Shown here one piece after another: positions 9,073-26,721 of a DNA stretch of 64,000 nt. Position 1 is the stretch's first letter. The number at the start of each line of letters is the position of its first letter. Both the position numbers and the translations under genes were made by a program. The notes below the pieces were generated by a model. The model was not told the DNA's origin. It saw only the letters and a program-made list of their open reading frames with translations, and made no database searches. Source of the DNA: Streptacidiphilus sp. ASG 303 (GTDB lineage Bacteria; Actinomycetota; Actinomycetes; Streptomycetales; Streptomycetaceae); assembly GCF_020991365.1 (NCBI RefSeq), contig NZ_JAJLRA010000023.1, positions 39,284-103,283 on the forward strand. Reading direction: 5' to 3'.

Positions 9073-9224
9073 GGGAACACCCCCCGCATCGGCGGGGAGG
9101 ACGAGCGCACCACACTCACGATGTCCCCGCCGTCCGGAACACCCCCGCATCGGCGGGGAGGACACCCATCAGGAGGACCCCATGTCCATGTCCCACGGAA
9201 CACCCCCGCATCGGCGGGGAGGAC

Positions 9225-9500
9225 GGGCAGCGTTTTGCTGCATCATGTGAAACGTCCGGAACACCCCCGCATCGGCGGGGAGGACGGGGTGCCGCCGGCC
9301 GCGTCGTTGACGTCGACCGGAACACCCCCGCATCGGCGGGGAGGACGGGGTGCCGCCGGCCGCGTCGTTGACGTCGACCGGAACACCCCCGCATCGGCGG
9401 GGAGGACAGCCATCCCCGGCCGGAGCACCGTAGGGGTCACGTAACACCCCCGCATCGGCGGGGAGGACGGGCAGCGTTTTGCTGCATCATGTGAAACGTC
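9225..9500 (-). repeat. Duplicated spacers in the old end of array 1 (pattern A-B-B-C-A)
   Basis: The spacer at 9225-9256 is identical to that at 9469-9500 (A), and those at 9286-9317 and 9347-9378 are identical (B). The spacer between them and the second A copy is unique (C). Such a pattern indicates recombination or replication slippage between repeats, not independent acquisition. Confidence 0.95.
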
Positions 9501-12397
9501 CGGAACACCCCCGCATCGGCGGGGAGGACATGGGCGGCGACACCTCCATGCGCGACAACGTCGGAACACCCCCGCATCGGCGGGGAGGACACCATGTCGT
9601 TCAGCCTGCAGAACATCCACGACGGAACACTCCCGCATCGGCGGGGAGGACCAGCAGGTGAGGGCCGGCAGGATCTTCCGGTTCGGAACACCCCCGCATC
9701 GGCGGGGAGGACTATGGGGCGGCAAGGTCGAGCCGTGGCAGCCGCGGAACACCCCCGCATCAGCGGGGAGGACGGCTCTAGGGGGTTGGACTGGCCCCGG
9801 TCGGGCGGAACACCCCCGCATCGGCGGGGAGGACGTCCGCCAGCTCCTGACCGAGGCCGGCGTCACCGGAACACCCCCGCATCGGCGGGGAGGACCTGAA
9901 CATCCAGGACTACGACGTCGAGGGCGCCGGAACACCCCCGCATCGGCAGGGAGGACTGGGGCGGGATCCGCGACAAGGCGACCCAGATCGGAACACCCCC
10001 GCATCGGCGGGGAGGACGGTAACGCCCTGGTCCCGGACGCCGTCTCCTCCGGAACACCCCCGCATCGGCGGGGAGGACCCGCTCTTCGGTCGCACCGCCG
10101 AGGGGCTGGACGGAACACCCCCGCATCGGCGGGGAGGACGGCCGCCGGGCGTCGGAGACGATCGCAAGCGACGGAACACCCACGCATCGGCGGGGAGGAC
10201 CCGGCTCCATGATCCCGGTCATGGCTCTCCGCCGAAACACCCCCGCATCGGCGGGGAGGACATCTGCCCGTCGCTACCGAGCGGGATCGAGTACGGAACA
10301 CCCCCGCATCGGCGGGGAGGACTCGCTGGTCACCGGCGACCCGACCGTCTTCACCGGAACACCCCCGCATCGGCGGGGAGGACCCCCGCGACCGCCCCGA
10401 GACCCCCGAGGTGCGCGGAACACCCCCGCATCGGCGGGGAGGACTCCGGCACCGTCGCGGCGACGTTCTCGTTCCAGGGAACACCCCCGCATCGGCGGGG
10501 AGGACTCGTCCTCCCACATGGGGGGAAGGGGGAGACGGGAACACCCCCGCATCGGCGGGGAGGACGGCTTCGCCGAGGAGGACTTCCGCACCGTCAGCGG
10601 AACACCCCCGCATCGGCGGGGAGGACATCGCCCACTACCTGACCATGACGCCGCGGGACGGAACACCCCCGCATCGGCGGGGAGGACGGGACCTGCGGGC
10701 CTGCCGCCTTGCTAGCTGGCGGAACACCCCCGCATCGGCGGGGAGGACGCAGCGAGCTGGTCCCGCTCGGCCTCGGCCTGCGGAACACCCCCGCATCGGC
10801 GGGGAGGACCGGGCCCGGGCCAGGATCGCGGGGCGCTGGGCCGGAACACCCCCGCATCGGCGGGGAGGACGACGAGCACCACCTGCAGGCCGGAGACCTC
10901 GTCGGAACACCCCCGCATCGGCGGGGAGGACTGCGTGGTCGCGCGGCCGTCCTGGGCCCCGGGCGGAACACCCCCGCATCGGCGGGGAGGACATTCCCGA
11001 CGACACCGGCGCCGGCCCGTACGTCGGAACACCCCCGCATCGGCGGGGAGGACGCCATGGCCTCGGCCCGCACCCGGCCGAGCACCGGAACACCCCCGCA
11101 TCGGCGGGGAGGACGTCACCCGGATCGCGAACTGCACCACGTCCAGCGGAACACCCCCGCATCGGCGGGGAGGACGCCCACGAATCTCTTGGAAGGAACC
11201 TCGTGGACGGAACACCCCCGCATCGGCGGGGAGGACAACCTGTGGCACCCCCACATCCACGCAATCGTCGGAACACCCCCGCATCGGCGGGGAGGACCTC
11301 CGCAACGGCGGGCGCATGGTGGTGCTCGACGGAACACCCCCGCATCGGCGGGGATGACCGCGGCCAAGGTGGCCCAGGTGTCCTCGCACGTCGGAACACC
11401 CCCGCATCGGCGGGGAGGACGCTTCCCAGCCCCCATCACCGCCGGATGTCCGCCGGAACACCCCCGCATCGGCGGGGAGGACCGCGTCTACCGCACCCCG
11501 GCCGGACCGAACACCGGAACACCCCCGCATCGGCGGGGAGGACGCGAGCTGGGCGCGGCGCGCGGCCAGGTCGGCCGGAACACCCCCGCATCGGCGGGGA
11601 GGACGCGCGCTCGGAAGTGGAGTCCCTGCGGGCGGACGGAACACCCCCGCATCGGCGGGGAGGACTCAGGCTCATCCGGATGACCAGAATGTGACCACGG
11701 AACACCCCCGCATCGGCGGGGAGGACCAGACCGGCTCGGCCTGGATCGAGGCCAAGAACGGAACACCCCCGCATCGGCGGGGAGGACCCCGTGGCCCTGC
11801 TCAACGGCCTGGTCGACGCCGGAACACCCCCGCATCGGCGGGGAGGACGTCGTCAGTGTCGGCGGCCTCCATGCGGCGGCCGGAACACCCCCGCATCGGC
11901 GGGGAGGACAACCAGCTGCGCTGGTTGCCGGTGGTGGCGAACGGAACACCCCCGCATCGGCGGGGAGGACGGCGCCAGCCCCTTCAACGACTCGGCGTAC
12001 TTCGGAACACCCCCGCATCGGCGGGGAGGACGGTCACCTCTCCACGGCCACCCTGCCCGTGTACGGAACACCCCCGCATCGGCGGGGAGGACTCCAACCT
12101 CACCGCGGCGAGCGCCCTCGGCGACGGAACACCCCCGCATCGGCGGGGAGGACCACTGGCGGGCGGCGGTCCAGGCGCTGTGGGTCGGAACACCCCCGCA
12201 TCGGCGGGGAGGACCGCCCGGCCGACGCGCCGGGAGAGCTGGGGCTCGGAACACCCCCGCATCGGCGGGGAGGACTACCAGCGCAGGTTGGTCGCCCACC
12301 GACCGGCCGGAACACCCCCGCATCGGCGGGGAGGACGGACCCTGCGGCCCCCTGCGGCCCTGTGCGGCCGGAACACCCCCGCATCGGCGGGGAGGAC

Positions 12398-12490
12398 GCG
12401 AAGACCAGGTCGTACTCCGCCGACATGATCGGAACACCCCCGCATCGGCGGGGAGGACGCGAAGACCAGGTCGTACTCCGCCGACATGAT
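12398..12490 (-). repeat. Tandem duplication of one spacer-repeat unit in array 1
   Basis: The 32-nt spacers at 12398-12429 and 12459-12490 are identical and lie next to each other, so one 61-bp unit was duplicated in place. Confidence 0.95.
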
Positions 12491-15400
12491 CGGAACACCC
12501 CCGCATCGGCGGGGAGGACATCAAGGAGATTCTCTCGCGGGCCGGCTTCGACGGAACACCCCCGCATCGGCGGGGAGGACATCACTGCACCGCGAGACCG
12601 GCCAGGCATCAACGGAACACCCCCGCATCGGCGGGGAGGACTGTTCGGCGGCCGGGCGAACCACGTGCGGGTCCGGAACACCCCCGCATCGGCGGGGAGG
12701 ACGCCCCCTCCCCGGAAACCGCCGCAACTTGCAACGGAACACCCCCGCATCGGCGGGGAGGACATCCTCCGGATGGAGACCGAGGACCAAGTGGTTGGAA
12801 CACCCCCGCATCGGCGGGGAGGACCAGGGCCTCGACGCCGGACAGGTCGAACTCGGCGGAACACCCCCGCATCGGCGGGGAGGACATGCTCGTCGGGGCC
12901 CTGCTCGTCCTGCTCGTCGGAACACCCCCGCATCGGCGGGGAGGACCATGCGGGTCGCACCTTCCTAGGGGCTTGCGACGGAACACCCCCGCATCGGCGG
13001 GGAGGACAAGCTGCGCGACGCCACCGAGGCCGCCGTGGTCGGAACACCCCCGCATCGGCGGGGAGGACCGCTCCACCCGACACGAGGAGATCCCTGATGC
13101 CGGAACACCCCCGCATCGGCGGGGAGGACGCCCCGAGGAAGCCGGCCGGGTCGTAGATGGGCGGAACACCCCCGCATCGGCGGGGAGGACGAGGCGTACT
13201 TCGACCGCCGCTACACCGGCACCGGAACACCCCCGCATCGGCGGGGAGGACCGGACCCGCAGCACGGACTGCTCGATGGTCCGCGGAACACCCCCGCATC
13301 GGCGGGGAGGACTGGCGAGTAATCGGAAGTATGCGGATCGTCCGCTGGAACACCCCCGCATCGGCGGGGAGGACTACCTGACCGGATGGGTCCGGTCCAT
13401 GGTCGGCGGAACACCCCCGCATCGGCGGGGAGGACATCACCGCACCGACCAGCAGCGTGCTCATGGGCGGAACACCCCCGCATCGGCGGGGAGGACCCAC
13501 GCCCACCCGCCGTCGGGGTCGGGGACGACGGAACACCCCCGCATCGGCGGGGAGGACAACTGGACGTCGGCGACACGCACCGTGAGCAGCGGAACACCCC
13601 CGCATCGGCGGGGAGGACATGGTCACCTGCCTCCGCGAACTCGACGACGCCGGAACACCCCCGCATCGGCGGGGAGGACCCGCGGATCCCCGCGATCTCC
13701 TCGCGCTTCGTCGGAACACCCCCGCATCGGCGGGGAGGACGCGGTGGAGTGGATGCGCCGCGGCGGCACGGTCGGAACACCCCCGCATCGGCGGGGAGGA
13801 CCAGTCTCCGCACCGCCGCTGGGCGACGGGGTCCGGAACACCCCCGCATCGGCGGGGAGGACGCCTGCGTCCTGGCCTTGCGGACGGTGATGAGCGGAAC
13901 ACCCCCGCATCGGCGGGGAGGACGGGGAGACCCGCAGCCGCCGCAGCAGACCGTCCGGAACACCCCCGCATCGGCGGGGAGGACTCCGCCGCGTCCTGCA
14001 CGGCCCGTTCCTGCTCCGGAACACCCCCGCATCGGCGGGGAGGACGGGTACCAGTACGACCGCGGCGCGAGGAAGTTCGGAACACCCCCGCATCGGCGGG
14101 GAGGACTCGGTCGGGCCCGGGCGCCGGCCGGTGCCCGTCGGAACACCCCCGCATCGGCGGGGAGGACAGCCCCTTCCAGTGGCGCCAGCGGGCGTCCAGC
14201 GGAACACCCCCGCATCGGCGGGGAGGACTCGGCCGCAGGAACGGCCGGCCCGGGCCTCGCAGGTGGTCGGAACACCCCCGCATCGGCGGGGAGGACACCG
14301 GCTCGTAGGTCGAGGCGAAGATGTCCGGCGGAACACCCCCGCATCGGCGGGGAGGACTAGCGCAGGGCGTCCAGGGAGTGGTCCTCGGCCGGAACACCCC
14401 CGCATCGGCGGGGAGGACCGGGGCGAGTTCTCGCAGTCGAGGACGAGGACCGGAACACCCCCGCATCGGCGGGGAGGACGTCTTCGACGGGGCGGAAGCC
14501 GAGGCCGAACTCGGAACACCCCCGCATCGGCGGGGAGGACGGGGAGGGCTTCGCGCTCGGCTTCGCGCTCGGCGGAACACCCCCGCATCGGCGGGGAGGA
14601 CCCGGGGGGGTGAAGGAGAACACGGGGGGCCTACGGAACACCCCCGCATCGGCGGGGAGGACAACCACTGCTCGACCTTGCGCTTCCACACGTCCGGAAC
14701 ACCCCCGCATCGGCGGGGAGGACCGTGCACGCGGGGGCGGCTCCGGAGGGGTCAGCGGAACACCCCCGCATCGGCGGGGAGGACGGCCGGCCCGCATCGC
14801 CGCCACCGGCGGATCCCGGAACACCCCCGCATCGGCGGGGAGGACAACCTCACTCCGCAGATTGCGGCGATCGACGGCGGAACACCCCCGCATCGGCGGG
14901 GAGGACAGCTCCTTCAAGCGGGCGTGTCGGGACAGCGACGGAACACCCCCGCATCGGCGGGGAGGACGAGTGGCTGGCGAGTTCGGACCTGACGACCGTC
15001 GGAACACCCCCGCATCGGCGGGGAGGACGGTCAGCTGACGCGGCTCAGTGCGCGCGCTGCCGGAACACCCCCGCATCGGCGGGGAGGACACGATCACGGT
15101 CTACGACCGGGGCGTGGGCGTCGGAACACCCCCGCATCGGCGGGGAGGACGCGCGCGACAGCGCGCCCAGTCCGCAACGGTCCGGAACACCCCCGCATCG
15201 GCGGGGAGGACGCGAGCCGGGCGGCGATGCGCTCGTTCCAGCACGGAACACCCCCGCATCGGCGGGGAGGACCGCAGGCGGGTCTCCTCGCGCACCAGAC
15301 GGGCCGGAACACCCCCGCATCGGCGGGGAGGACAGGAGCCTGGTCCGCTACCAGACGTCGATCTCCGGAACACCCCCGCATCGGCGGGGAGGACTCGCCA

Positions 15401-15518
15401 GCCACCTGCCGCGGCGCCCACCTGGGCGGAACACCCCCGCATCGGCGGGGAGGACCCACCCATGTGCCTCCCGGCCGACCGTGTCCGCTTGGAACACCCC
15501 CGCATCGGCGGGGAGGAC

Positions 15519-15700: not shown

Positions 15701-18559
15701 GTGGTTATGCGGGGCGGTAGTGACTGGAGTCCGTGGGGGAAAGCGAAGGGGCTGGATGAGCCGTATCCCTTGATCTTCCACATGTTGGACAGTGCCGCGG
15801 TCGCGCTATCGCTGTGGGATGTGTTCCTGGCTCCCAGCCAGCGCCAGGTCATTTCTGCGGGGCTGGGGCTTGCCGATGATCTTGATCGTGCTCGAGCCAC
15901 GGTGTCGTTGTGGACGGGTCTGCACGACATCGGCAAGCTGTCGCCTGGCTTCCAGTCCGCGGACCCACGCGGCTGGACCGGGTTGAGCAAGGCCCTGCAT
16001 GCCGACCTGGGGGTGTGGGGCGAGAAGTTGGGCCATGCGCAGGCTGGAATGCGTTGCGCGCCAGCACTGCTGGAGGGTCTCGGGTATCCGGACACCGGGG
16101 CGTGGGGGGTGCGGCTGCGAGCAGCTCAGATCGTGGGTGGCCATCATGGGCGTTTCCATGCCGCGGAGGAACACCTGCTCGACAGTCCCTGCCACCTGCA
16201 GGCATTGGGTGGAGTCAACTGGGCGGAATTGCGTCGCTCTTACACAGAAGTGCTGCACCGGCTGCTGGGCGCTCCTGCGGCTCCTGCTGAGGTGTCCACG
16301 CAGGTTGCCGTACTGGTGACGGGACTGGTGATCCTTGCTGACTGGCTGGTGAGCCAGGAGCACTACCTGCGTGCGCGCCAGAAGGCGCCGATCTCCTCGG
16401 TGGAGGAGCACTGGGAGGCGGCATCGGCGGCGTGCCTGCCGTTGCTGGAGGAAGCGGGCCTGGTGCCGGTGGATCTGGGGCGCACCGCGTTCGTGCAGGC
16501 CCATGGCATCCCGCAACCGAACGCATTACAGCGCTCGGTACTGGACGAGTTGCCGGCGGCTGTCCGCGGACCGGGGATCCTCTTGGTGACCGCAGCGACC
16601 GGTGACGGGAAGACGGAGACTGCGCTGGAGTCCGAACGCATCCTGGCTGAGTCCTGCGGCACGCGGGGCTTTGCTTTCCTGCTGCCGACCATGGCCACCA
16701 GTGATCAGATGTACGAGCGGGTCAATGCCTTCGTTCGCCGGCAGTGCACCGCTCCGCCCTCGGTGACGCTCACGCACAGTATGGCCTGGCTCAATCCCGC
16801 CTACAGCGAGGATCTCCTGCAGACAGGCCCGGCTGTGCTGACCGGGGAGATCGCCGACCAGAATGGCAGCGGATCCGGGTCGGCAGTGGCGAGCCGGTGG
16901 CTACGCGGCGGCAAGCGGCCTCTGCTGGCCCAGTTCGCTGTCGGCACGATCGATCAGGCCCTGATGGCGGTGTTGCCGGTCAAGCACAACGCACTGCGGA
17001 TGCTCGCACTGTCAGGCAAGACCTTCATCGTCGACGAGGCGCACGCCTACGACCCCTACATGCAGGTGCTGCTGGGTCGGCTGCTGCACTGGCTGGGCGC
17101 CTATCGCTGCCCGGTCGTGTTGCTGTCCGCGACCCTGCCCGTGTCGGTCAGCGACCGCCTGATCAAGGAGTACCTTCGCGGCGCCGGAGCCACCAAGAGA
17201 GAGCTGCGCGACGCCTCCTTCCGCTCTCCCTACCCTGGCTGGCTCTTCGTGGACGCCGCCACCCGTACGGCTACCTGCATGTCCGGGGCCGCCCGGACCC
17301 AGCAGACCGCAGACCGCCGCACCCGCCTGGCGCTGCGCCGCGAAGCTGTTCGGCACGTTCTTCCCGCCTCTGACCGCACTGCTGACCGGCTGCCTGACCA
17401 GGCCCGCCTCCAGCGTATTGAGGACCTTCTGCAGCCCCTGATGACCGACCAGGGCGGCTGCGCTCTGGTGGTGTGCACGACCGTTGCGGACGCCCAGCAG
17501 ACCTACAGTCGCTTGCGCACTCGCCTGTGCTCACGCCTTGGCCCCGGGGAGCTCGAGCTGCTCCACGCCCGCTTGCCAGGGGACGACCGCGCGGCCCGCA
17601 CCACGCGAATCACCTCTGACCTGGGGCGTACCGGTAACCGTCCGGTGCGCCGGATCGTGGTGGCCACCCAGGTCGTGGAGCAGTCCCTTGACCTGGACGC
17701 AGACCTGGTCATCAGTGACCTTGCGCCGCTGGCTCTGCTGTTGCAGCGTGCTGGGCGGTGCTGGAGGCATGAGGGGTGGTGGGCGCGGCACGGACGCCCG
17801 GGAGGCCGTGACCGTCCGGCCTGGGCGCAGGAGGCCGGCCCACAGCTCGTTGTCCTGGATCCCCTGGACGAGAACGGTGCCGTGCCGCCGCACTGGGGCG
17901 AGGTCTACGACACATACCTGCTGCAGGCGACCGCCCGCGTCATCGTGGAGCGGGACGGTACGCGGCTGAACATCCCAGAGGAGGTGCAGGACCTGGTTGA
18001 GCAGGTCCACGGCGACGGACGGACCAGGGAGGGGCAGCCTCTGTACCGATGGGATGAACCGGAGCTGGCGCCTGCCCGTCTGGCCTACGAGGGCGGGAAA
18101 GCCGCGATGGAGACGGCTGGGCGTTGTGTGGCGATCCCGCGAGTGAAAGACATCGCTGGACTGGAGGCGCTGCACCGCTTCGAGGCGAAGGACGAGGAAT
18201 GGGACGCGGCGACCCGCCTGGGCGCCGACTCGGTCCGAGTGCTCTGCTGCTACGTCCAGCCCGATGGTTGCACGACGCTGGATGTGTCGGGAGCACGGCC
18301 GCTGCCGCTCCCGGGCCAGGGGCGGCTGCCCACCTCCGCCGAGGTCCGCGCGGTGATGGAGCGCACCATCCCCGTACAGGCCGCCTGGATGGCCTTCCGG
18401 ACCCCTGACCAGGCACCCCCGCAGGAGTGGGCCCAGCACACGATGCTGTCTGACCTTGTTCTCCTACGACATGAAATCGGGCAGGCCGGCCCAGCTGGCG
18501 TCCAGGTGGGGAATCGGACGTACCACTTGGACACCGAGCTCGGGCTGGTACGGACGTGA
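15701..18559 (+). CDS. cas3: CRISPR-associated nuclease/helicase Cas3 (type I-E)
   Basis: A 952-residue fusion of HD nuclease and SF2 helicase, the effector that unwinds and shreds DNA marked by Cascade. The HD site is visible as H27, H75-D76, HH148-149 and D214. Helicase motifs follow: Walker A ATGDGKT at 299-305, DEAH at 445-448, LLSATLP, and motif VI QRAGRCWRH. The GTG at 15701 has AGGGGG a few bases upstream; ATG 15707 is a close alternative. It lies apart from the casA operon by 309 bp, so the two units can be regulated separately. Its codon use is somewhat less GC-rich than that of the later cas genes. Confidence 0.97.
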   Translation: MVMRGGSDWSPWGKAKGLDEPYPLIFHMLDSAAVALSLWDVFLAPSQRQVISAGLGLADDLDRARATVSLWTGLHDIGKLSPGFQSADPRGWTGLSKALHADLGVWGEKLGHAQAGMRCAPALLEGLGYPDTGAWGVRLRAAQIVGGHHGRFHAAEEHLLDSPCHLQALGGVNWAELRRSYTEVLHRLLGAPAAPAEVSTQVAVLVTGLVILADWLVSQEHYLRARQKAPISSVEEHWEAASAACLPLLEEAGLVPVDLGRTAFVQAHGIPQPNALQRSVLDELPAAVRGPGILLVTAATGDGKTETALESERILAESCGTRGFAFLLPTMATSDQMYERVNAFVRRQCTAPPSVTLTHSMAWLNPAYSEDLLQTGPAVLTGEIADQNGSGSGSAVASRWLRGGKRPLLAQFAVGTIDQALMAVLPVKHNALRMLALSGKTFIVDEAHAYDPYMQVLLGRLLHWLGAYRCPVVLLSATLPVSVSDRLIKEYLRGAGATKRELRDASFRSPYPGWLFVDAATRTATCMSGAARTQQTADRRTRLALRREAVRHVLPASDRTADRLPDQARLQRIEDLLQPLMTDQGGCALVVCTTVADAQQTYSRLRTRLCSRLGPGELELLHARLPGDDRAARTTRITSDLGRTGNRPVRRIVVATQVVEQSLDLDADLVISDLAPLALLLQRAGRCWRHEGWWARHGRPGGRDRPAWAQEAGPQLVVLDPLDENGAVPPHWGEVYDTYLLQATARVIVERDGTRLNIPEEVQDLVEQVHGDGRTREGQPLYRWDEPELAPARLAYEGGKAAMETAGRCVAIPRVKDIAGLEALHRFEAKDEEWDAATRLGADSVRVLCCYVQPDGCTTLDVSGARPLPLPGQGRLPTSAEVRAVMERTIPVQAAWMAFRTPDQAPPQEWAQHTMLSDLVLLRHEIGQAGPAGVQVGNRTYHLDTELGLVRT

Positions 18560-18583
18560 GCCCTGCTTGCGGTGTGCGTGCCG

Positions 18584-18672
18584 CGCACTGCCCCCACGTC
18601 GGTGGGGATGGCACGCCGCAGGCGTACTACGGCTGAGCACTCGCGGTGCACCCTCGCATGGGCGAGGACAGA
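18584..18672 (-). ncRNA. Degenerate two-repeat mini-CRISPR, probable crRNA-like cas regulator (CreR-type)
   Basis: Two decayed repeats occur at 18584-18612 and 18644-18672, 60 bp apart, in the same orientation as array 1. Each matches the consensus at 20 of 29 positions. Both keep the hairpin through paired changes: G-C to A-T in the first, C-G to T-A in the second. The upstream one ends in handle GTGCACCG (consensus GTGTTCCG). The 31-nt core between them reads CGAGTGCTCAGCCGTAG and onward on the minus strand. TTGCAC (18697-18702) and GTCGAT (18674-18679), 17 bp apart, could be its promoter. The core partly matches the casA promoter; see the next feature. Processing by Cas6e is an inference. 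Confidence 0.82.
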
Positions 18673-18761
18673 GATCGACCGCACTCGGGGGATGAAGTGC
18701 AAGGAGCTGCGACGCCGGCGGCTTCATCTCTACATCTTCGGCAGGGGGCGCCGCAGAGGAA

Positions 18762-18802
18762 TCGTAAAAGCCCCTCTACAACTGAGTACTCGCTTGTAGC
18801 GT
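18762..18802. promoter_or_regulatory. casA promoter overlapped by a Cascade target with AAG PAM
   Basis: On the minus strand, AAG (18795-18793) is followed by CGAGTACTCAGTTGTAG (18792-18776). The mini-CRISPR core reads CGAGTGCTCAGCCGTAG. Positions 1-5, 7-11 and 14-17 match; mismatches fall at 6, 12 and 13, and 6 and 12 are the flipped-out bases of type I-E guides. A plausible promoter, TCTACA (18775-18780), 16 bp, TAGCGT (18797-18802), lies in the same place, so Cascade binding would block transcription of the operon. The promoter boxes are predicted. Confidence 0.78.
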
Positions 18803-18868
18803 CAAGTAATGGCTGGTCAGCGCGATTCGACCTCGGGCAGCCGCAGCACGAAAGGGAAGGGAAAAGCT

Positions 18869-20506
18869 ATGTCGCCACCAGCATTTGATGTGCGTGAGCG
18901 ACCATGGATCCCGGTTCGGATCAACGGTCGTTCGTTGCGTGTCGGGCTGCGAGAGCTGTTCCTGCGCGCCCATGAGATCGAGGATCTGGAGCTGCCGGTC
19001 CCGCCGTCGGCCTCGGGGCTGCTGCGGGTCCTGTACGCGCTGACCGCCCGCATCGCCGCCGATGACGACGGGCAGCGTATGGGCGATGAGGACATCGAGG
19101 GCGTCCAGGAGTGGGCCGCGCTGCGGAACCGGATCCTGGCTGCAGGCCGTTTCCCCCCGGAGCGGGTGAACGGCTACTTCGATGCTCCGGCGCTGGCGGG
19201 CAGGTTCGACCTGTTCGGCGAGCGGCCGTTCCTGCAGGATCCGCGGTTGGCCGAGCAGTGCCCCAGCAGCTCGGGCGTGAACAAGCTGGTGCTGGGCCGG
19301 CCGACCGGAGTGAACGGCGCGGTGTGGTTCGGGCACTTCACCGATACCGCTCCGCTGCCGGTCCCGGCGGCCGAGGCGGCCTGGCACATGCTGGCCCAGC
19401 TGTACTACGGGCCCAGCGGACAGTGCACCCCCCGACGGATCACCACCGTCAAGCCGGGCAATGGCGACGCCGGACCGCTGCGAAAGACGGTGTCCTTCCA
19501 CCCGTGGGCGCCCGACCTGTTCACCTCCCTGATCCTGGGAGTGCCCTTTTCCGGTGAGGACAGTGCCGCCGAGGAGGAGGACCCCTGCCCGTGGGAGCAG
19601 GAGGAGCCAGGGGATCCGCTGGGCCCGCTGCCGCCGCTGACCAGCCCGGCGCGGCTGCTGACCGGCCGGGCCAAGCACGCCGTCCTGCTGGTGCCGGGGG
19701 AGCACGGGGCAACGGTCACCGACGCCTACATCACATGGTCCACCCATGAGCCGGCCCAGGAGGCCCACGACCCGTACGTGGTGCTCAACCGCAGCAAGGA
19801 CGGTCGGTTCTACGCCCGCCCGGCCGACTGCGGCCGCGCCGCCTGGCGGGACCTGGACGCCCTGCTGCTGAAGAGCGCAGAGGTCCACGACTTCCGTCGT
19901 CCGCGGATCTTCGAGCTGCTGTCCGCGCTGCCTGCGGCGGTCCGTGATGCTCTGCGGGTGCGGGTGTACGGGTTCCATCAGGACGGTCAGCAGCGTGACA
20001 CCGGCTGGTACACCGCCACCACCCCGCGGGTTCTGCGCTTCTTGGAGGAGCAGGACCCGCAGATGGCCTGGCGCATCTCCACCTGCCGCCGGGCCGCTGA
20101 GGAGCTGGGTGCTCAGCTGGACTACGCCGCCAAGCTCGCCTGGGCGGAGACGGTCTCCCCACCGAAGGAGGGGGAGAAGGTCCGCATCGACCCGAAGAAG
20201 CCTGGACCGTGGGCTGCTACCGCCACATCCGCATACTGGCCCGGGGCCGAGAAGCTGTTCTGGGAGCTGACCCAGCCGCAGTCCGACGCGACAACCATCT
20301 ACCGGCGCTTCGCCGACCTCGCCCGGGCAGCGCTCCGCGACGCCGTCGGCCTGGCCGCTCGCAACTTGCCTGTCGCCCGGGCGCTCAACCATGCCCTGGC
20401 GGTACTTCGCCGTGCCGCGCCCGCCCAGGCACCATCCGTCCCCGCCCAGACCTTGCGAGCCGACGACCCGCGCCTGCCCGCCGCAGCCCTGGAGACAACT
20501 CAGTGA
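18869..20506 (+). CDS. casA: Cascade large subunit CasA/Cse1 (Cas8e)
   Basis: A 545-residue Cse1-family protein, the subunit that reads the PAM and recruits Cas3. It starts FDVRERPWIPVRING, the usual Cse1 opening, and contains the GRFDLFGERPFLQD and QLYYGPSGQCTPRRI segments seen in actinobacterial CasA proteins. The ATG at 18869 is preferred over the GTG/ATG twenty codons earlier because AAAGGGAAGGG lies just upstream and the family homology begins there. It is the first gene of the casA-cas2 operon, whose promoter carries the mini-CRISPR target. Its stop overlaps the casB start by four bases. Confidence 0.97.
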   Translation: MSPPAFDVRERPWIPVRINGRSLRVGLRELFLRAHEIEDLELPVPPSASGLLRVLYALTARIAADDDGQRMGDEDIEGVQEWAALRNRILAAGRFPPERVNGYFDAPALAGRFDLFGERPFLQDPRLAEQCPSSSGVNKLVLGRPTGVNGAVWFGHFTDTAPLPVPAAEAAWHMLAQLYYGPSGQCTPRRITTVKPGNGDAGPLRKTVSFHPWAPDLFTSLILGVPFSGEDSAAEEEDPCPWEQEEPGDPLGPLPPLTSPARLLTGRAKHAVLLVPGEHGATVTDAYITWSTHEPAQEAHDPYVVLNRSKDGRFYARPADCGRAAWRDLDALLLKSAEVHDFRRPRIFELLSALPAAVRDALRVRVYGFHQDGQQRDTGWYTATTPRVLRFLEEQDPQMAWRISTCRRAAEELGAQLDYAAKLAWAETVSPPKEGEKVRIDPKKPGPWAATATSAYWPGAEKLFWELTQPQSDATTIYRRFADLARAALRDAVGLAARNLPVARALNHALAVLRRAAPAQAPSVPAQTLRADDPRLPAAALETTQ

Positions 20507-21207
20507 CGACACCTACCGTCCCCGCGGCCGCAACGACCACATCCGACACATCGGCGAAACCGAGGTATTCCGAGGAGTTCGTCGCCACCGTGATGCGTCT
20601 GTGCGGTGACAAGGGCACCCAGGCCGACCTGCGCAGTGGCATCGGCCGCACCGTCGAGCACTGCGCGCGCATGCACCGCCACCTGGTGCCCCTGACTGCG
20701 CCCGACCTTCACCCGGCCGCCCGTCAGGCCCGCTACACGGTCGCCGCCCTCATCGCTGCCCGTCCCCGCGCGACCCGCGACACCGATCAGGCAACCGCGC
20801 CGGATCCGGCCCAGGCCGCCGCGGATTCGGCGTCCTCCGACAGCGATCGTTCCGCCGGATCGGCCCAGACGTGGTCGCGCAGCACCAACCTGGGCACCAG
20901 CCTCGCCGAAGGTGTGCGCCACGGCGCCCTGAAGGACGACTCCGCCGAAGCCGAACTTCACCTCCTCACCCGGCAGAGCGCCAAGGCCGTGCTGCGCCGC
21001 CTGCCCGCGCTCACCCGGCACCTGCAGACCGCAGGCGTGACCATCTCCTGGGCCGTGCTGCTGGAGGACCTCACTTGGTGGGACCTCGACCGCGACCGAA
21101 TCGTCACCCGCTGGTTCGACAGCTACTTCCGCGCCCTGTATGCCCCCGCCGCAGACGGCGCCCCCACCAATTCCGCCCGCACCAACGAATCGGAGACGAA
21201 CCGATGA
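20503..21207 (+). CDS. casB: Cascade small subunit CasB/Cse2 (Cas11e)
   Basis: A 234-residue, mostly helical protein. The conserved Cse2 elements are FVATVMRLCGDKGTQADLRSG near residues 25-45 and the C-terminal WWDLDRDRIVTRWFDSYF. In Cascade two copies line the belly and stabilise the R-loop. Compared with about 160 residues in E. coli it is long; an Ala/Asp/Ser-rich insert around residues 85-125 accounts for much of this. The GTG at 20503 overlaps the casA stop (GTGA), and its own stop overlaps casC (ATGA), indicating tight translational coupling. Confidence 0.95.
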   Translation: MTTPTVPAAATTTSDTSAKPRYSEEFVATVMRLCGDKGTQADLRSGIGRTVEHCARMHRHLVPLTAPDLHPAARQARYTVAALIAARPRATRDTDQATAPDPAQAAADSASSDSDRSAGSAQTWSRSTNLGTSLAEGVRHGALKDDSAEAELHLLTRQSAKAVLRRLPALTRHLQTAGVTISWAVLLEDLTWWDLDRDRIVTRWFDSYFRALYAPAADGAPTNSARTNESETNR

Positions 21208-22337
21208 GCATGTTCCTTGACCTGCATGCCCTCCAGAGCGTTCCTGCGGCCAATCTCAACCGCGACGACCTGGGCTCCCCCAAGACTGTCCGTTACGGCA
21301 ACGCCGACCGCATCCGAGTCTCCAGCCAGTCCTGGAAGCGCGTCATGCGCCACGGCGTGGAGCGCGAACTGGGCGAGACCGCCGCCCGTACCCGCCTGGT
21401 TCCCGTCAAGGTCAAGGAGTCGCTGGCCCGCAAGGGATGGGACGCCGACGCCGCCGCATTCGCCGGTGCCCAAATCGCCGCCTGCGCGGGCGACAAGGGA
21501 CTGAAGACCGAGGATGCCGGCCACACCTCCGTCCTGCTGTTCCTCCCTGCGGTCGGCATCGACGAGCTCGTCGCCCTGTGCGAGGAACACCGCGCCGCCC
21601 TCGAACAGGCCGCCGTCAAGAAGCCCGCCAAGAACGCCAAGCCCGCCCAACTGCTGCCCACCGATCAGGTCGCCGCCGTCCTCAAGCGGCGCACCGCCTC
21701 CATCAGCCTCTTCGGCCGCATGCTCGCCGAACTGCCCGGAGCCAACGTCGACGGCGCCGCCCAGGTCGCCCACGCCATGACCACCCACGCCAGCGAACCG
21801 CAGCGCGACTACTTCACCGCCGTCGACGACTGGCTGGGCGAGGCCGAGACCGGCAGCGGCCACCTGAGCACCGCGGAGTTCGGCGCCGGCGTCTTCTACC
21901 GCTTCGCCTCCGTCAACCTCGACGACCTGCTGACCAACCTCGAAGGCGACCGCAAGACCGCCCGCGCCCTCGTCGGTGTCTTCGCCGACCAGTTCCTGAT
22001 GTCCCTGCCGCAGGCCAAGAAGAACAGCACCGCCCCCCACACCATCCCCGACCTGGCCTACCTCGCCGTCCGCGAACACCGGCCCGTCTCCATGGCCGCC
22101 GCCTTCGAGACCCCGGTCCGCCCGGACGCCGCCGGCGGCTTCTCCGCCCCCTCCCGCAAGGCCCTGGCCGACTACGCCGCCACCGTCGACCGCCTCACCG
22201 GCGGCCGCCACCGCTCCTTCCACGCCCACGCCGGCGTCCAGACCCTCGACGGCCTCGGCACGCCGTACGACTCCTTCCCCGAGCTCATCACCGCCGCGGT
22301 GGACGCCGCCCTGCCGTCCGCCGAGGCCCAGGCGTGA
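21204..22337 (+). CDS. casC: Cascade backbone subunit CasC/Cse4 (Cas7e)
   Basis: A 377-residue RAMP protein, six copies of which form the crRNA-binding backbone. The opening MSMFLDLHALQSVPAANLNR and the NADRIRVSSQSWKRVMR segment are diagnostic of Cas7e. The thumb-type segment and the late GRHRSFHAHAGVQTLDG block also fit. The flipped-out bases at every sixth crRNA position are caused by the thumbs of this subunit, relevant to the mismatch pattern at the casA promoter. The start ATG overlaps the casB stop (ATGA), and the stop overlaps casD (GTGA). Confidence 0.97.
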   Translation: MSMFLDLHALQSVPAANLNRDDLGSPKTVRYGNADRIRVSSQSWKRVMRHGVERELGETAARTRLVPVKVKESLARKGWDADAAAFAGAQIAACAGDKGLKTEDAGHTSVLLFLPAVGIDELVALCEEHRAALEQAAVKKPAKNAKPAQLLPTDQVAAVLKRRTASISLFGRMLAELPGANVDGAAQVAHAMTTHASEPQRDYFTAVDDWLGEAETGSGHLSTAEFGAGVFYRFASVNLDDLLTNLEGDRKTARALVGVFADQFLMSLPQAKKNSTAPHTIPDLAYLAVREHRPVSMAAAFETPVRPDAAGGFSAPSRKALADYAATVDRLTGGRHRSFHAHAGVQTLDGLGTPYDSFPELITAAVDAALPSAEAQA

Positions 22338-23092
22338 CCGGCATCCTGCTCCGGCTCGCCGGTCCCCTGCAGTCCTGGGGCGAACGCTCCGCCTTCGGCG
22401 TCCGCGACACCGCCCCGTTCCCCACCCGCTCCGCCCTGACCGGCATGTTCGCGGCCGCCGAAGGCCGCAGCCGCGACCAGGCACCCGACGCCTATGCCGA
22501 CCTCGGCTTCACCGTCCGCATCGACCGTCCAGGCCTGCGCATGGTCGACTTCCACACCATCGGCGGCGGCCTCCCCCCGAACCTGACCGCAGCCACCAGC
22601 GCCGGCGGCCACAAGAAGACCGCCGTGCTTTCCTACCGCCACTACCTGGCCGACGCCGTCTTCACCGTCGCCGTCACCGGCCCGCCCGAGTGCCTGGAAC
22701 GCATCACCGAGGCGCTGCGCCGCCCGCATTGGGCTCCCTATCTGGGCCGCCGTTCCTGCCCGCCCGACGAGCCACTCGTGCTGCGCGGTCCCCACCACGA
22801 CCCCCTCACCGAACTCACTACCCGCGCGCCCCTTTCCGTTCCCCCACCGGCCGACCCCGGCCGTGCGACCGTCCCGGTGGAGTTCCTCTGGGACACCGCC
22901 CCCGCGCACCTGCCCGAGGACGCCCCCGTCCTGGACGTCACCGACATGCCCGAGAGCTTCGCCCCCGCCGACCGCCGCTACCGCACCCGGCGGCTCTACC
23001 GCACAGTCGAGCAACTCCCGGCCCGCCTCTGCATCGAGCCCTGCGATCTCGCCCGGACCCTCATCGACTACGCCCTGGAAGTGCCCGCATGA
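22334..23092 (+). CDS. casD: Cascade subunit CasD (Cas5e)
   Basis: A 252-residue Cas5 protein, which caps the 5' handle of the crRNA in Cascade. The N terminus MTGILLRLAGPLQSWGERSAFGVRDTAPFPTRSALTG is the classic Cas5e opening (RAMP strand, then QSWG and TxxxPTKS-like motif); quoted here by its key residues QSWGE at about 13-17. The GTG start overlaps the casC stop and the TGA overlaps the casE start. Length is normal for the family. No insertions or lost motifs are seen. Confidence 0.96.
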   Translation: MTGILLRLAGPLQSWGERSAFGVRDTAPFPTRSALTGMFAAAEGRSRDQAPDAYADLGFTVRIDRPGLRMVDFHTIGGGLPPNLTAATSAGGHKKTAVLSYRHYLADAVFTVAVTGPPECLERITEALRRPHWAPYLGRRSCPPDEPLVLRGPHHDPLTELTTRAPLSVPPPADPGRATVPVEFLWDTAPAHLPEDAPVLDVTDMPESFAPADRRYRTRRLYRTVEQLPARLCIEPCDLARTLIDYALEVPA

Positions 23093-23739
23093 CCCGCGCC
23101 CACCTGGCCAGGATCCGGCTCAACCCCATGAGCCGACACGTCCAGCGCGACCTGCGCGACGCCACCGAACTGCACCGCACGGTCATGCGCCTGGTGCCCG
23201 ACCACCTCGGCGACCACGCCCGACAGCAGACCGGACTCCTCTTCCGGCTCGACGAGACCGACGACACCAGCACCCTCCTCGTCCAGGCGCACAACACCGG
23301 CCTGGATCCAACCCGCCTGCCCCATGACTACGGCCATGCCGAAGTCAAGGACCTCGCTCCCATGTTCACCGCCCTGGCGGCCGGCCTGCGTGTGCGCTAC
23401 CGCATCGCCGCCAACCCCTCCAAGCGCCAACGCCTCCCACTGGACCACCGCGGAGCCCGGGGCCCCGTCACCCCCCTCAGCGGCCCGGAAGCCGACCAGT
23501 GGTGGATGGGCAGGGCCGCCAGTGCTGGTCTCGCCGTCCACACCCTCACCGCCACCCCGCTGCGCCCCGCGCAGCAGCACGGTCACGGTCCCCGCCTGCG
23601 GCACAGCCTCACCCGCTTCGACGGCACTGCCACCGTCACCGACCCCAAAGTCCTCACCGAAGCTCTCCTCGCCGGAATCGGCAAAGGCAAGGCATACGGC
23701 GCCGGCCTGCTCAGCCTCGCTCCCGCCACCACCGCATGA
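23089..23739 (+). CDS. casE: crRNA endonuclease CasE (Cas6e)
   Basis: A 216-residue RAMP endoribonuclease that cuts the repeat hairpin to leave the 8-nt handle and the 3' stem-loop. Visible features are LARIRLNPMSR at residue 5 onward, the GLLFRLDE strand and the Gly-rich loop GIGKGKAYGAGLLSLAP at the C terminus. A His in the N-terminal part (H29 of ELHRTVMRLVP) is positioned like the catalytic His of E. coli Cas6e. It must recognise two array repeats that differ at positions 1 and 15 and probably the degenerate mini-array. Overlaps: ATGA with casD, ATGA with cas1. Confidence 0.96.
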   Translation: MTRAHLARIRLNPMSRHVQRDLRDATELHRTVMRLVPDHLGDHARQQTGLLFRLDETDDTSTLLVQAHNTGLDPTRLPHDYGHAEVKDLAPMFTALAAGLRVRYRIAANPSKRQRLPLDHRGARGPVTPLSGPEADQWWMGRAASAGLAVHTLTATPLRPAQQHGHGPRLRHSLTRFDGTATVTDPKVLTEALLAGIGKGKAYGAGLLSLAPATTA

Positions 23740-24710
23740 CACCGCCACCGGCCCGCGACGCGAGGGCGCGCCTGGCCGCGCCCTCGCTCGCCATGCTCCC
23801 CAAGATCGGCGACGCCCTGTCCTTCCTCTACCTGGACATGGTCCGCATCGTCCAGGACGACACCGGCGTCTGCGCCCAGATCGAGACCCGCACCGGCCTG
23901 GACACCGTCTACATCCCCACTGCCGCCCTCTCCTGCGTGCTGCTGGGCCCGGGCACCTCCATCACTGCCCGCGCCCTGTCCACCTTCGCCCGCCACGGCA
24001 CCACGGTCGTCTGCACCGGCTCCGGAGCCGTCCGGGCCTACGCCGGTATCCAACCGGCCTCGCTGACCACTGAATGGCTCGAAAAGCAGGTCCGCGCCTG
24101 GGCCGACGAGACCCCCCGCCTGCAGGTAGCCGTCCGGATGTACGAGCGTCGCTTCGACGACACCGTGCCGCCCGGAATCACCCTCGCGCAGCTCAGGGGC
24201 ATGGAAGGCCAGCGCATGAAGGCCCTCTACCGCATCCTCGCCCAGCAGCACGGCATCGGCCGCTTCCGCCGCGCCTACGACCCCGCCCAATGGGACACCC
24301 AGGACCCCGTCAACCTGGCCCTGTCCTCGGCCAACACCTGCCTGTACGGCGTTGTCCATGCCGCTCTTCTGGCCATGGGCTGCTCACCGGCGCTGGGCTT
24401 CGTCCACACAGGCACCCAGCACTCCTTTGTCTACGACATCGCCGATCTCTACAAGGCCGACACCACCATCCCCCTCGCCTTCTCCCTGCACGATTCGTCG
24501 AACCCCGAACAAGAAGCACGGCGCAGGCTCCGCGACGGTTTCCGCCTCATCAAGCTCCTCCCACGTATCGTCCGTGACATCCAGACCATGCTCAGCCCCA
24601 ACAACGACACCGACGACGAACCCGACCAACGGGAAGTCCGACTCGTCCACCTGTGGGATCCGACGGCAGGCGTCCTCCCCGCCGGCGTCAACTACGCAAC
24701 GGAACCCTGA
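23736..24710 (+). CDS. cas1: CRISPR integrase Cas1 (type I-E)
   Basis: A 324-residue Cas1e. The catalytic metal ligands are visible: E157 in LRGMEGQRMK, H224 in GFVHTGTQHS and D234/D237 in FVYDIADLYK. Cas1 with Cas2 captures pre-spacers and inserts them at the leader-proximal repeat. The ATG at 23736 overlaps the casE stop by four bases. The acidic C-terminal tail (NNDTDDEPDQ) is a species-specific extension. One base separates its stop from cas2. All key residues are intact, so acquisition should be possible. Confidence 0.97.
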   Translation: MTPPPARDARARLAAPSLAMLPKIGDALSFLYLDMVRIVQDDTGVCAQIETRTGLDTVYIPTAALSCVLLGPGTSITARALSTFARHGTTVVCTGSGAVRAYAGIQPASLTTEWLEKQVRAWADETPRLQVAVRMYERRFDDTVPPGITLAQLRGMEGQRMKALYRILAQQHGIGRFRRAYDPAQWDTQDPVNLALSSANTCLYGVVHAALLAMGCSPALGFVHTGTQHSFVYDIADLYKADTTIPLAFSLHDSSNPEQEARRRLRDGFRLIKLLPRIVRDIQTMLSPNNDTDDEPDQREVRLVHLWDPTAGVLPAGVNYATEP

Positions 24711-24711
24711 C

Positions 24712-25023
24712 ATGCCGTCCATGGTCGTCATCGCCACTACCGCCGTCCCTGACACCCTTCGCGGCGCCCTCAGCCGTTGGACCATCGAAGTCGTCCCTGG
24801 CATCTTCGTCGGTACCGTTTCCGCCCGAGTCCGAGACCAGCTGTGGGATGCCGCATCTCAAGTGGTCGGAGACGGCGCTGCCGTCCTCATCCACCCCGCT
24901 GCCAACGAACAAGGCTTCGCCCTACGCACTGCCGGCGCACGACGCCGACAGCCAGTTGACTTCGACGGCCTTACTCTCATCCGTATGGCCGCCTCGCTTC
25001 ATGCAAAGAATTTGCAAAGCTGA
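24712..25023 (+). CDS. cas2: CRISPR-associated protein Cas2 (type I-E)
   Basis: A 103-residue Cas2e of the CRISPR-associated Cas2 CT1978 type. It starts MPSMVVIATTAVPDTLRGAL and includes the RWTIEVVPGIFVGTVSARVRD block typical of I-E Cas2. It forms the structural core of the Cas1-Cas2 complex. A second ATG at 24721 is possible. The gene ends only 23 bp before the first repeat of array 2, so the array leader lies within the 3' end of this coding sequence. Fused nuclease domains (DnaQ) found in some I-E Cas2 proteins are absent. Confidence 0.96.
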   Translation: MPSMVVIATTAVPDTLRGALSRWTIEVVPGIFVGTVSARVRDQLWDAASQVVGDGAAVLIHPAANEQGFALRTAGARRRQPVDFDGLTLIRMAASLHAKNLQS

Positions 25024-25046: not shown

Positions 25047-26721
25047 CTCCTCCCCGCCGACGCGGGGGTGTTCCGAATCCGCACGCGCCCCTCTGCCGCC
25101 CGTAGGGCTCCTCCCCGCCGACGCGGGGGTGTTCCGGACCCGGACGCCGATGTCGTGCCGGTTCTCCTCTCCTCCCCGCCGACGCGGGGGTGTTCCGGCG
25201 CTGAACAGCTTGACGGCGACGGCGACGAACTCCTCCCCGCCGACGCGGGGGTGTTCCGTCGGACCTGCGTGAGGCGGAGGCCGAGAAGGGCTCCTCCCCG
25301 CCGACGCGGGGGTGTTCCGTTCTTCCGCAATGGCACCGAGATGGAGGGCCTCTCCTCCCCGCCGACGCGGGGGTGTTCCGTTGCTGCCGCCGTCCTGCCC
25401 GGCCCTGTTCCACTCCTCCCCGCCGACGCGGGGGTGTTCCGAAGAACAAGGTCTGGCACTACTGGGTCGAGCGCTCCTCCCCGCCGACGCGGGGGTGTTC
25501 CGATCGCGGACAACGCCCACAACAGCCACCCCGACTCCTCCCCGCCGACGCGGGGGTGTTCCGCCGTCGGGGGTGCGGTCGCTGTCAGCTGCGGTCTCCT
25601 CCCCGCCGACGCGGGGGTGTTCCGCGGCAGTCCTCCGAGACGCAGGCCGCGCTGCTCTCCTCCCCGCCGACGCGGGGGTGTTCCGTCCTACCGCAAGGCC
25701 ATCACGGACCTGAACGTCTCCTCCCCGCCGACGCGGGGGTGTTCCGGCGTAGAGGGTCTCGTCCTCGGCGTTGGTGTCCTCCTCCCCGCCGACGCGGGGG
25801 TGTTCCGCTCCTGCGTGCGCACCGGGCCGTCGACCGCGACTCCTCCCCGCCGACGCGGGGGTGTTCCGGCCTCCTGATGTTCCGCATCCCCACCGACCGC
25901 CTCCTCCCCGCCGACGCGGGGGTGTTCCGCTCTTCGGCCGCGTCAAGGGCCTCGACGCCCGCTCCTCCCCGCCGACGCGGGGGTGTTCCGGACACGGCCA
26001 CCCCGAACCCGCCGAGCGCGGCCTCCTCCCCGCCGACGCGGGGGTGTTCCGCCCGCGGCGTCCTGATGTCCTCGCCGGTCGTCCTCCTCCCCGCCGACGC
26101 GGGGTGTTCCGTTGGAGAACCCCTGCAGGTCGGCCGCCATCCCCTCCTCCCCGCCGACGCGGGGGTGTTCCGATCCCACGGGGGATTTTTCGTCCCCCAC
26201 TTCTCTCCTCCCCGCCGACGCGGGGGTGTTCCGGTCCGATGGGCGACCCGGCCCGCCGGATCTTCCTCCTCCCCGCCGACGCGGGGGTGTTCCGTCGGGG
26301 TTCGCCACGACCGTGCCGCCGATGCCCTCCTCTCCGCCGACGCGGGGGTGTTCCGACCACCATGGCCGTGAACGCCGGGTTCGACACCTCCTCCCCGCCG
26401 ACGCGGGGGTGTTCCGGCCGGGCTCCTCCCGGCGGCGGACAAGGCCGGCTCCTCCCCGCCGACGCGGGGGTGTTCCGTGGCCCACCCGGATCGTGACCGC
26501 CCCGTACAACTCCTCCCCGCCGACGCGGGGGTGTTCCGACACCCCAGGAGTAGCCGGTGGCCGCCGACGACTCCTCCCCGCCGACGCGGGGGTGTTCCGT
26601 GGTGGATGTTGCCCATGGAGAACGCCATGGTCTCCTCCCCGCCGACGCGGGGGTGTTCCGCGGCCACGCTCCCGTGCATCGGCGTACCGCTGCTCCTCCC
26701 CGCCGACGCGGGGGTGTTCCG
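25047..26721 (+). CRISPR. Type I-E CRISPR array 2: 28 repeats, 27 spacers
   Basis: 29-bp repeats every 61 bp, read on the plus strand, with stem CCCCGC / GCGGGG, loop CGAC and handle GTGTTCCG. The repeat differs from array 1 at position 1 (C for G) and position 15 (C for T). Spacers are 32 nt. One repeat near 26085-26112 lacks a G and is 28 bp; the repeat near 26328 has one substitution in the stem. The last, oldest repeat at 26693-26721 is intact. Leader and direction are set by the conserved bases at 25033-25046. No spacer is repeated within this array or obviously shared with array 1. Confidence 0.98.

Follow-up and report, generated by a model that had tools for sequence, protein, structure and literature searches.

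The 64-kb stretch of DNA analyzed here (the window) contains a complete type I-E set, cas3, casA, casB, cas7, cas5, cas6e, cas1 and cas2, recognized with profile models and encoded on the plus strand. The cas3 gene (15701..18559) scores above the cut-offs of the cas3_core and cas3_HD models and ends with a stop codon at 18559. Downstream lie casA (cse1; 18869..20506; TIGR02547, E 5e-52) and open reading frames containing casB (cse2; 20209..21207; TIGR02548), cas7 (20871..22337; TIGR01869), cas5e (21437..23092; TIGR01868), cas6e (22690..23739; TIGR01907), cas1e (23499..24710; TIGR03638) and cas2e (24352..25023; TIGR01873). Two CRISPR arrays flank the cas genes on opposite strands. Array 1 is upstream on the minus strand (9135..15518) and holds 105 repeats within 4 mismatches, 93 of them exact; array 2 is downstream on the plus strand (25047..26721) and holds 27 such repeats, 26 of them exact. 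The repeats of the two arrays are slightly unlike (GTCC..GATG versus CTCC..GACG).

A degenerate repeat pair and a matching site upstream of casA

The initial annotation placed a degenerate mini-CRISPR between cas3 and casA, consisting of two 20/29 repeats with compensated stems, 60 bp apart, around a 31-nt core on the minus strand. All of these features were found again. The unit is 89 bp long (18584-18672, minus strand), lies within the cas3-casA gap and has a repeat start-to-start distance of 60. The first repeat, R1 (18644..18672, minus strand; stem CCTCGC/GCGAGG), and the second, R2 (18584..18612, minus strand; stem CCCCAC/GTGGGG), each match the array repeat at 20/29 positions, and R2 has a degenerate 3' end. 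All six stem pairs are kept in both repeats, and one pair in each carries a two-sided change (C-G to T-A in R1, G-C to A-T in R2). Both repeats fold as complete hairpins with unexceptional folding energies (z = -1.7 for R1 and -1.3 for R2), and the folding energy of the whole unit is not exceptional either (z = -1.4). R1 ends in the 8-nt handle GTGCACCG, which adjoins the 31-nt guide core (18613..18643, minus strand; beginning CGAGTGCTCAGCCGTAG) so that the core stands in exact register behind the handle. R1 and R2 are the only pair in the 64-kb window, outside both arrays, with identities of at least 16/29, 6/6 stems and a spacing of 58-64. An ordinary array has near-identical repeats, such as the 93 exact copies in array 1, versus 20/29 for each of R1 and R2. 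A crRNA-like unit with degenerate repeats beside cas genes is instead the arrangement of a CreR, a cas-regulating RNA. The product of the cas6e-containing reading frame is the presumed processor of the two-repeat unit. A search of the window for the unit's own promoter gave none that was recognizable.

The guide core matches a site upstream of casA, and matched pairs of this kind recur in relatives. The 17-nt target, the putative operator CGAGTACTCAGTTGTAG (18776..18792, minus strand), is directly preceded by an AAG PAM (18793..18795, minus strand) and matches the core at 14/17 positions. Matches fall at positions 1-5, 7-11 and 14-17; the mismatched positions are 6, 12 and 13, in full agreement with the initial annotation. 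Leaving aside the flipped positions, the match is 14/15; when the cas3-casA gap was dinucleotide-shuffled 20,000 times, the best AAG-preceded site reached 12. The PAM plus seed, AAGCGAGTNCTCAG, searched with at most 1 mismatch, occurs once in the 6.99-Mb assembly, exactly, at the casA target; a single loose match in the assembly is unremarkable by itself because a reversed control pattern also matched once.

The first gene downstream of the target is casA, which starts at 18869, 77 nt downstream of target position 1. The guide is partly complementary to a presumed cas promoter region beside a PAM, as in a CreR, with the placement of the promoter depending on a weak -10-like element. The overlap of the target with a predicted promoter, also claimed at the outset, is the one softer point. 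A sigma-70 consensus scan of 18500-18900 returned no promoter. A weak pair is present, in which TCTACA (18775..18780, plus strand; 4/6 to TTGACA), a possible -35 element overlapping the target, stands 16 nt before TAGCGT (18797..18802, plus strand), which lies 1 nt beyond the PAM and resembles a -10 element of the presumed casA promoter, and a TAnnnT past the PAM recurs in relatives.

Guide-site pairs in related casA loci

Searches for casA covered sets of 3, 394, 392 and 293 genomes, which overlap (1082 by the database's count). The 123 type I-E casA loci compared are the window, 120 stretches chosen among the listed matches (not every match was taken) and 2 named loci, from Crossiella and Actinomadura, neither of which has a unit. 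L041 and L048 duplicate L040 and L047, exactly or nearly so, each pair occupying the opposite ends of one chromosome. An array is present in the examined stretch of 81/123 loci.

In the first test, repeat pairs were chosen blind to the target (summed identity of at least 36) and the best target was chosen blind to the PAM. The identity threshold was fixed on the first 62 relatives plus the window, and the allowed spacing, at first 58-64, was extended to 58-65 ahead of the final run, which admitted only L054 and L065, both from that first set. The threshold was reached by 39 pairs, and 37 remained after L054 (a homopolymer run) and L142 (true array repeats) were dropped. AAG preceded the best target in 25/37 of these degenerate pairs (in L108 by a tie), compared with 23/1332 when cores were swapped between loci and 15/1850 for shuffled cores. 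Seven of the 23 AAG-giving swaps score at least 12, all between loci with similar cores. The 60 loci fetched after the threshold was set gave AAG in 14/21 pairs. Another triplet precedes the best target in 12/37 pairs; in L036 and L086 that target ties with an AAG site, and the triplet is AAT in L065 and AAC in L094. Eight of the 37 repeat pairs have no convincing target (L059, L068, L085, L106, L132, L137, L150 and L151). The L085 pair lies beside casA (minus strand, near -49 relative to the casA hit); its R2 is identical to a 29-mer that occurs at least 3 times in the locus, and no AAG target was found for it.

The second test accepted a single repeat-like site (186 sites) and required an AAG target scoring at least 12/15. 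An AAG-preceded match was found upstream of casA in 31/123 loci versus at most 5 for any other triplet (the next-best reached 5), and swapped cores predict 0.23. In all 31, casA is on one strand and both the repeat-like site and the target are on the other. Besides the window's genome they represent 30 further genomes, each of a separate species by database description. Guides are unlike between most lineages, yet each stays matched to its own site. A lack of core-target co-conservation had been named beforehand as refuting; such co-conservation was found in 30/122 relatives' casA loci, mostly with different guides. Single-linkage clustering of the cores gave 13 clusters at 10/17 identity, one of which holds 16 loci; no count of independent origins is given because this procedure merged unrelated guides. 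Changed core cells are compensated in 204/267 cases at guide positions versus 2/79 at flipped positions and 25/361 in the tail, tallies that are partly built in because of selection for matching and repeated pairs. In L053, two tandem AAG-preceded matches to one guide lie upstream of casA (at -308 and -336 relative to the casA hit; 14 and 13 of 15), as if the operator had been doubled.

Matching along the guide is periodic. Across the 31 loci the match frequencies are 1.00,.94, 1.00, 1.00 and 1.00 at positions 1-5, 1.00,.97,.77,.84 and.97 at positions 7-11, and.84,.90,.77,.74 and.45 at positions 13-17; these figures are inflated by selection on matching positions, which leaves the PAM count unaffected. 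The frequencies fall to.19,.23 and.10 at positions 6, 12 and 18 and to about.26 past 18, so that matching at 6, 12, 18 and everywhere past 17 is about chance or below. The mask did not create these dips, which persist in its absence: scoring candidate targets over all 17 positions, or over all of the first 11, still shows them and gives 22 and 21 AAG targets, respectively, for the 37 pairs. Masks in the wrong phase recover 13-17 AAG targets versus 25 in the right phase (37 pairs). Cascade reads its guide in a six-base rhythm. AAG is the measured PAM of the S. avermitilis type I-E system (PMC4762764). Skipping every sixth base behind an AAG PAM would be the expected signature of a site read by Cascade.

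In 12/31 loci a -10-like TAnnnT starts 0-8 nt from the PAM in the direction of casA, compared with a mean of 2.0 and a maximum of 8 in 5000 local shuffles. In 9 of those 12 it stands 3-4 nt past the PAM (shuffled mean 0.44, maximum 4), and it is absent from that place in 19/31 loci. A first estimate of this enrichment, based on control windows taken at other places in the loci (mean 0.26, maximum 4), was set aside, local shuffles being the stricter control. The position of TAnnnT next to the PAM is moderate evidence that Cascade bound at the target would cover the upstream portion of the casA promoter.

The 31 loci have two gene orders. The order is unit, site, casA in 9 loci including the window (layout A) and site, unit, casA in 22 (layout B); the target is upstream of casA in both. 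In a quick CasA tree (120 rows), all nine layout-A loci fall in one supported clade of 14 proteins, and layout B is found in two other parts of the tree. On the strand of the unit, ACAAT starts 9-14 nt before R1 in 12/22 layout-B loci and 0/9 layout-A loci, and 17 control windows gave 0 or 1 of 31. We infer that ACAAT may be the unit's own -10 element in layout B, with transcription starting near R1, and that the layout-B cas leader would include the whole unit in antisense. A second member of the window's genus (L056, G001) has a layout-B unit; the cas loci of the two congeners seem to be of different lineages because their CasA proteins are only ~42% identical.

The gene orders bear on what the unit would repress. 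In the window's order the target is also upstream of the unit in the unit's reading direction, which would suit a unit acting on its own promoter or, as in CreTA, on a small toxic RNA. The 22 layout-B loci, in which the target is downstream of the unit in that direction and is therefore not the unit's promoter, speak against action on the unit's own promoter. The constant feature is the site upstream of casA, with a casA-side -10-like element in 12/31 loci, and a target other than casA is very unlikely.

Distribution of the unit

The unit is common and not universal, because 52/81 array-bearing loci and a clade of array-less loci are without the pair. At the second-test threshold no AAG pair was seen in these 52 loci, two of which (L037 and L038) are close relatives of the window. 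Six of them (L065, L079, L086, L094, L108 and L141) have sub-threshold or variant-PAM pairs, and absence is still common. Thirteen negative loci were re-examined. L065 has a convincing pair (AAT PAM, 14/15), and L079, L086 and L141 score 10-11 with AAG; L122 has a weak GCT match only, and L037, L038, L055, L094, L101, L104, L108 and L144 have none at that filter. At the settings of the first test, L094 shows an AAC pair (12) and L108 an AAG pair (10, a tie). When units were sought anywhere in loci lacking a casA-proximal match, only L078, L079 and L081 gained convincing AAG pairs. Gain or loss has been repeated, since these labels need several changes on the CasA tree.

No pair occurs in a clade of 22 CasA proteins whose examined stretches lack arrays. 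Members include L039, L040, L042-L045, L051, L052, L060, L064, L103, L106, L112 and L139. The 13 loci of this clade that were inspected contain cas3, casA, casB, cas7 and mostly cas5 and cas6e relatives, with no cas1 or cas2 match. In genomes G102 and G134 of the clade, whose chromosomes are single contigs, copies lie close to each chromosome end, and casA copies are placed likewise in G445, G464 and G695. The array-less clade is perhaps an adaptation-less I-E module located in terminal repeats.

The absence of the unit from many related loci, together with its degenerate repeats, is what a dead remnant of an old array would leave, the match to the casA site being then a coincidence or a fossil self-spacer. 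A remnant would not be expected to preserve its stems through compensated changes, or to keep guide and site matched while their sequences change, as they do in 31 loci versus 0.23 expected. This explanation is even less probable than a target other than casA. The least credible reading is that core and target are two copies of an ordinary protein regulator's binding site with Cascade uninvolved, for although a motif shared within one intergenic gap is a common operator arrangement, here the motif differs between most lineages while both copies stay matched, one copy starts right behind a repeat handle and the other right behind AAG, and every sixth base is skipped in the matching.

Predicted control of casA by a CreR

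Taken together, the data make it very probable that the window's unit produces a CreR directed at casA. Sequence evidence strongly supports Cascade-guided feedback on this gene because guide-site pairs are co-conserved and because both the pattern of five matched bases and one skipped and the AAG emerge from searches that did not restrict the PAM. The built-in feedback on casA-cas2 proposed in the initial annotation gains support at the sequence level from the 31 matched guide-site pairs. In the predicted mechanism, the unit would be transcribed from the minus strand and its transcript cut by Cas6e to give an RNA of ~60 nt that begins with the handle GUGCACCG. Cascade loaded with this RNA would bind the casA promoter and repress casA-cas2, and pairing over only ~17 nt would not license Cas3. 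This would cap the output of the cas genes, with an increase expected whenever ordinary crRNAs compete for Cascade, an anti-CRISPR blocks it, or it is lost.

CreR cas-regulating RNAs were reportedly described by Liu et al. in 2023 in Cell Host Microbe. The mechanism predicted for the window's unit is not new, because CreR is already known, type I-E included, and by its sequence features the unit is best placed in a widespread branch of CreR. According to the review PMC13131331, CreRs repress their own cas systems in types I-B, I-E and V-A by pairing incompletely with the promoter, and crRNA and anti-CRISPR sensing is described in PMC12737573 and PMC12948488. The predicted product of the window's unit resembles these in being a crRNA-like regulatory RNA from a mini-CRISPR with a guide partly complementary to a cas promoter region. 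For published CreRs the relief by crRNA competition and anti-CRISPRs is on record; for the window's unit it is predicted from sequence. Compared with CreR as described in these papers, the present branch differs in having two gene orders and strongly diverged guides that are nevertheless matched to their sites.

Two other natural guides are related in design. In CreA of CreTA (PMC8501985, PMC9458426), two degenerate repeats likewise give a handle and a hairpin, and Cascade represses a promoter through partial complementarity, as is predicted for the window's unit; CreA represses a toxic RNA, whereas the window's target precedes casA. The tracr-L of S. pyogenes Cas9 (PMC8616872) is likewise a natural guide of short complementarity that makes an effector repress its own cas promoter, the role predicted here; unlike the window's unit, it is type II, derives from a long tracrRNA, has an 11-nt match and lacks a repeat pair. 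The literature searched on CreR, mini-CRISPR, cas autorepression and Streptomyces type I-E, a scope that left out most subscription papers, contained no description of the unit in this lineage, and the actinomycete CRISPR review PMC12231136 has no mention of CreR, autoregulat-, mini-CRISPR or promoter.

A more speculative and rather doubtful extension is that these loci form a natural library of bind-but-do-not-cut guides, in which guide and operator invent their sequences together, so that the loop is private to each strain's cas operon, with an antisense two-way switch in 22/31. In layout B (22/31) the leader of the repressed operon would enclose the unit, encoded on the other strand, and the cas mRNA would include a perfect antisense to the CreR. 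Two promoters firing at each other could then form a switch between quiet and alert CRISPR states. Layout A, the window's order, would be the version without the antisense arm.

The 31 genomes show by evolution alone which guide positions and which PAM persist when a Cascade guide is directed at a promoter of its own cell, and self-aimed Cascade guides seemingly do not kill the cell. The matched guide-operator pairs are a ready test set for this question, and the unit offers a direct way to test how type I-E immunity is controlled in this group. If the unit works as predicted, phage anti-CRISPRs against Cascade would raise cas expression in these bacteria.
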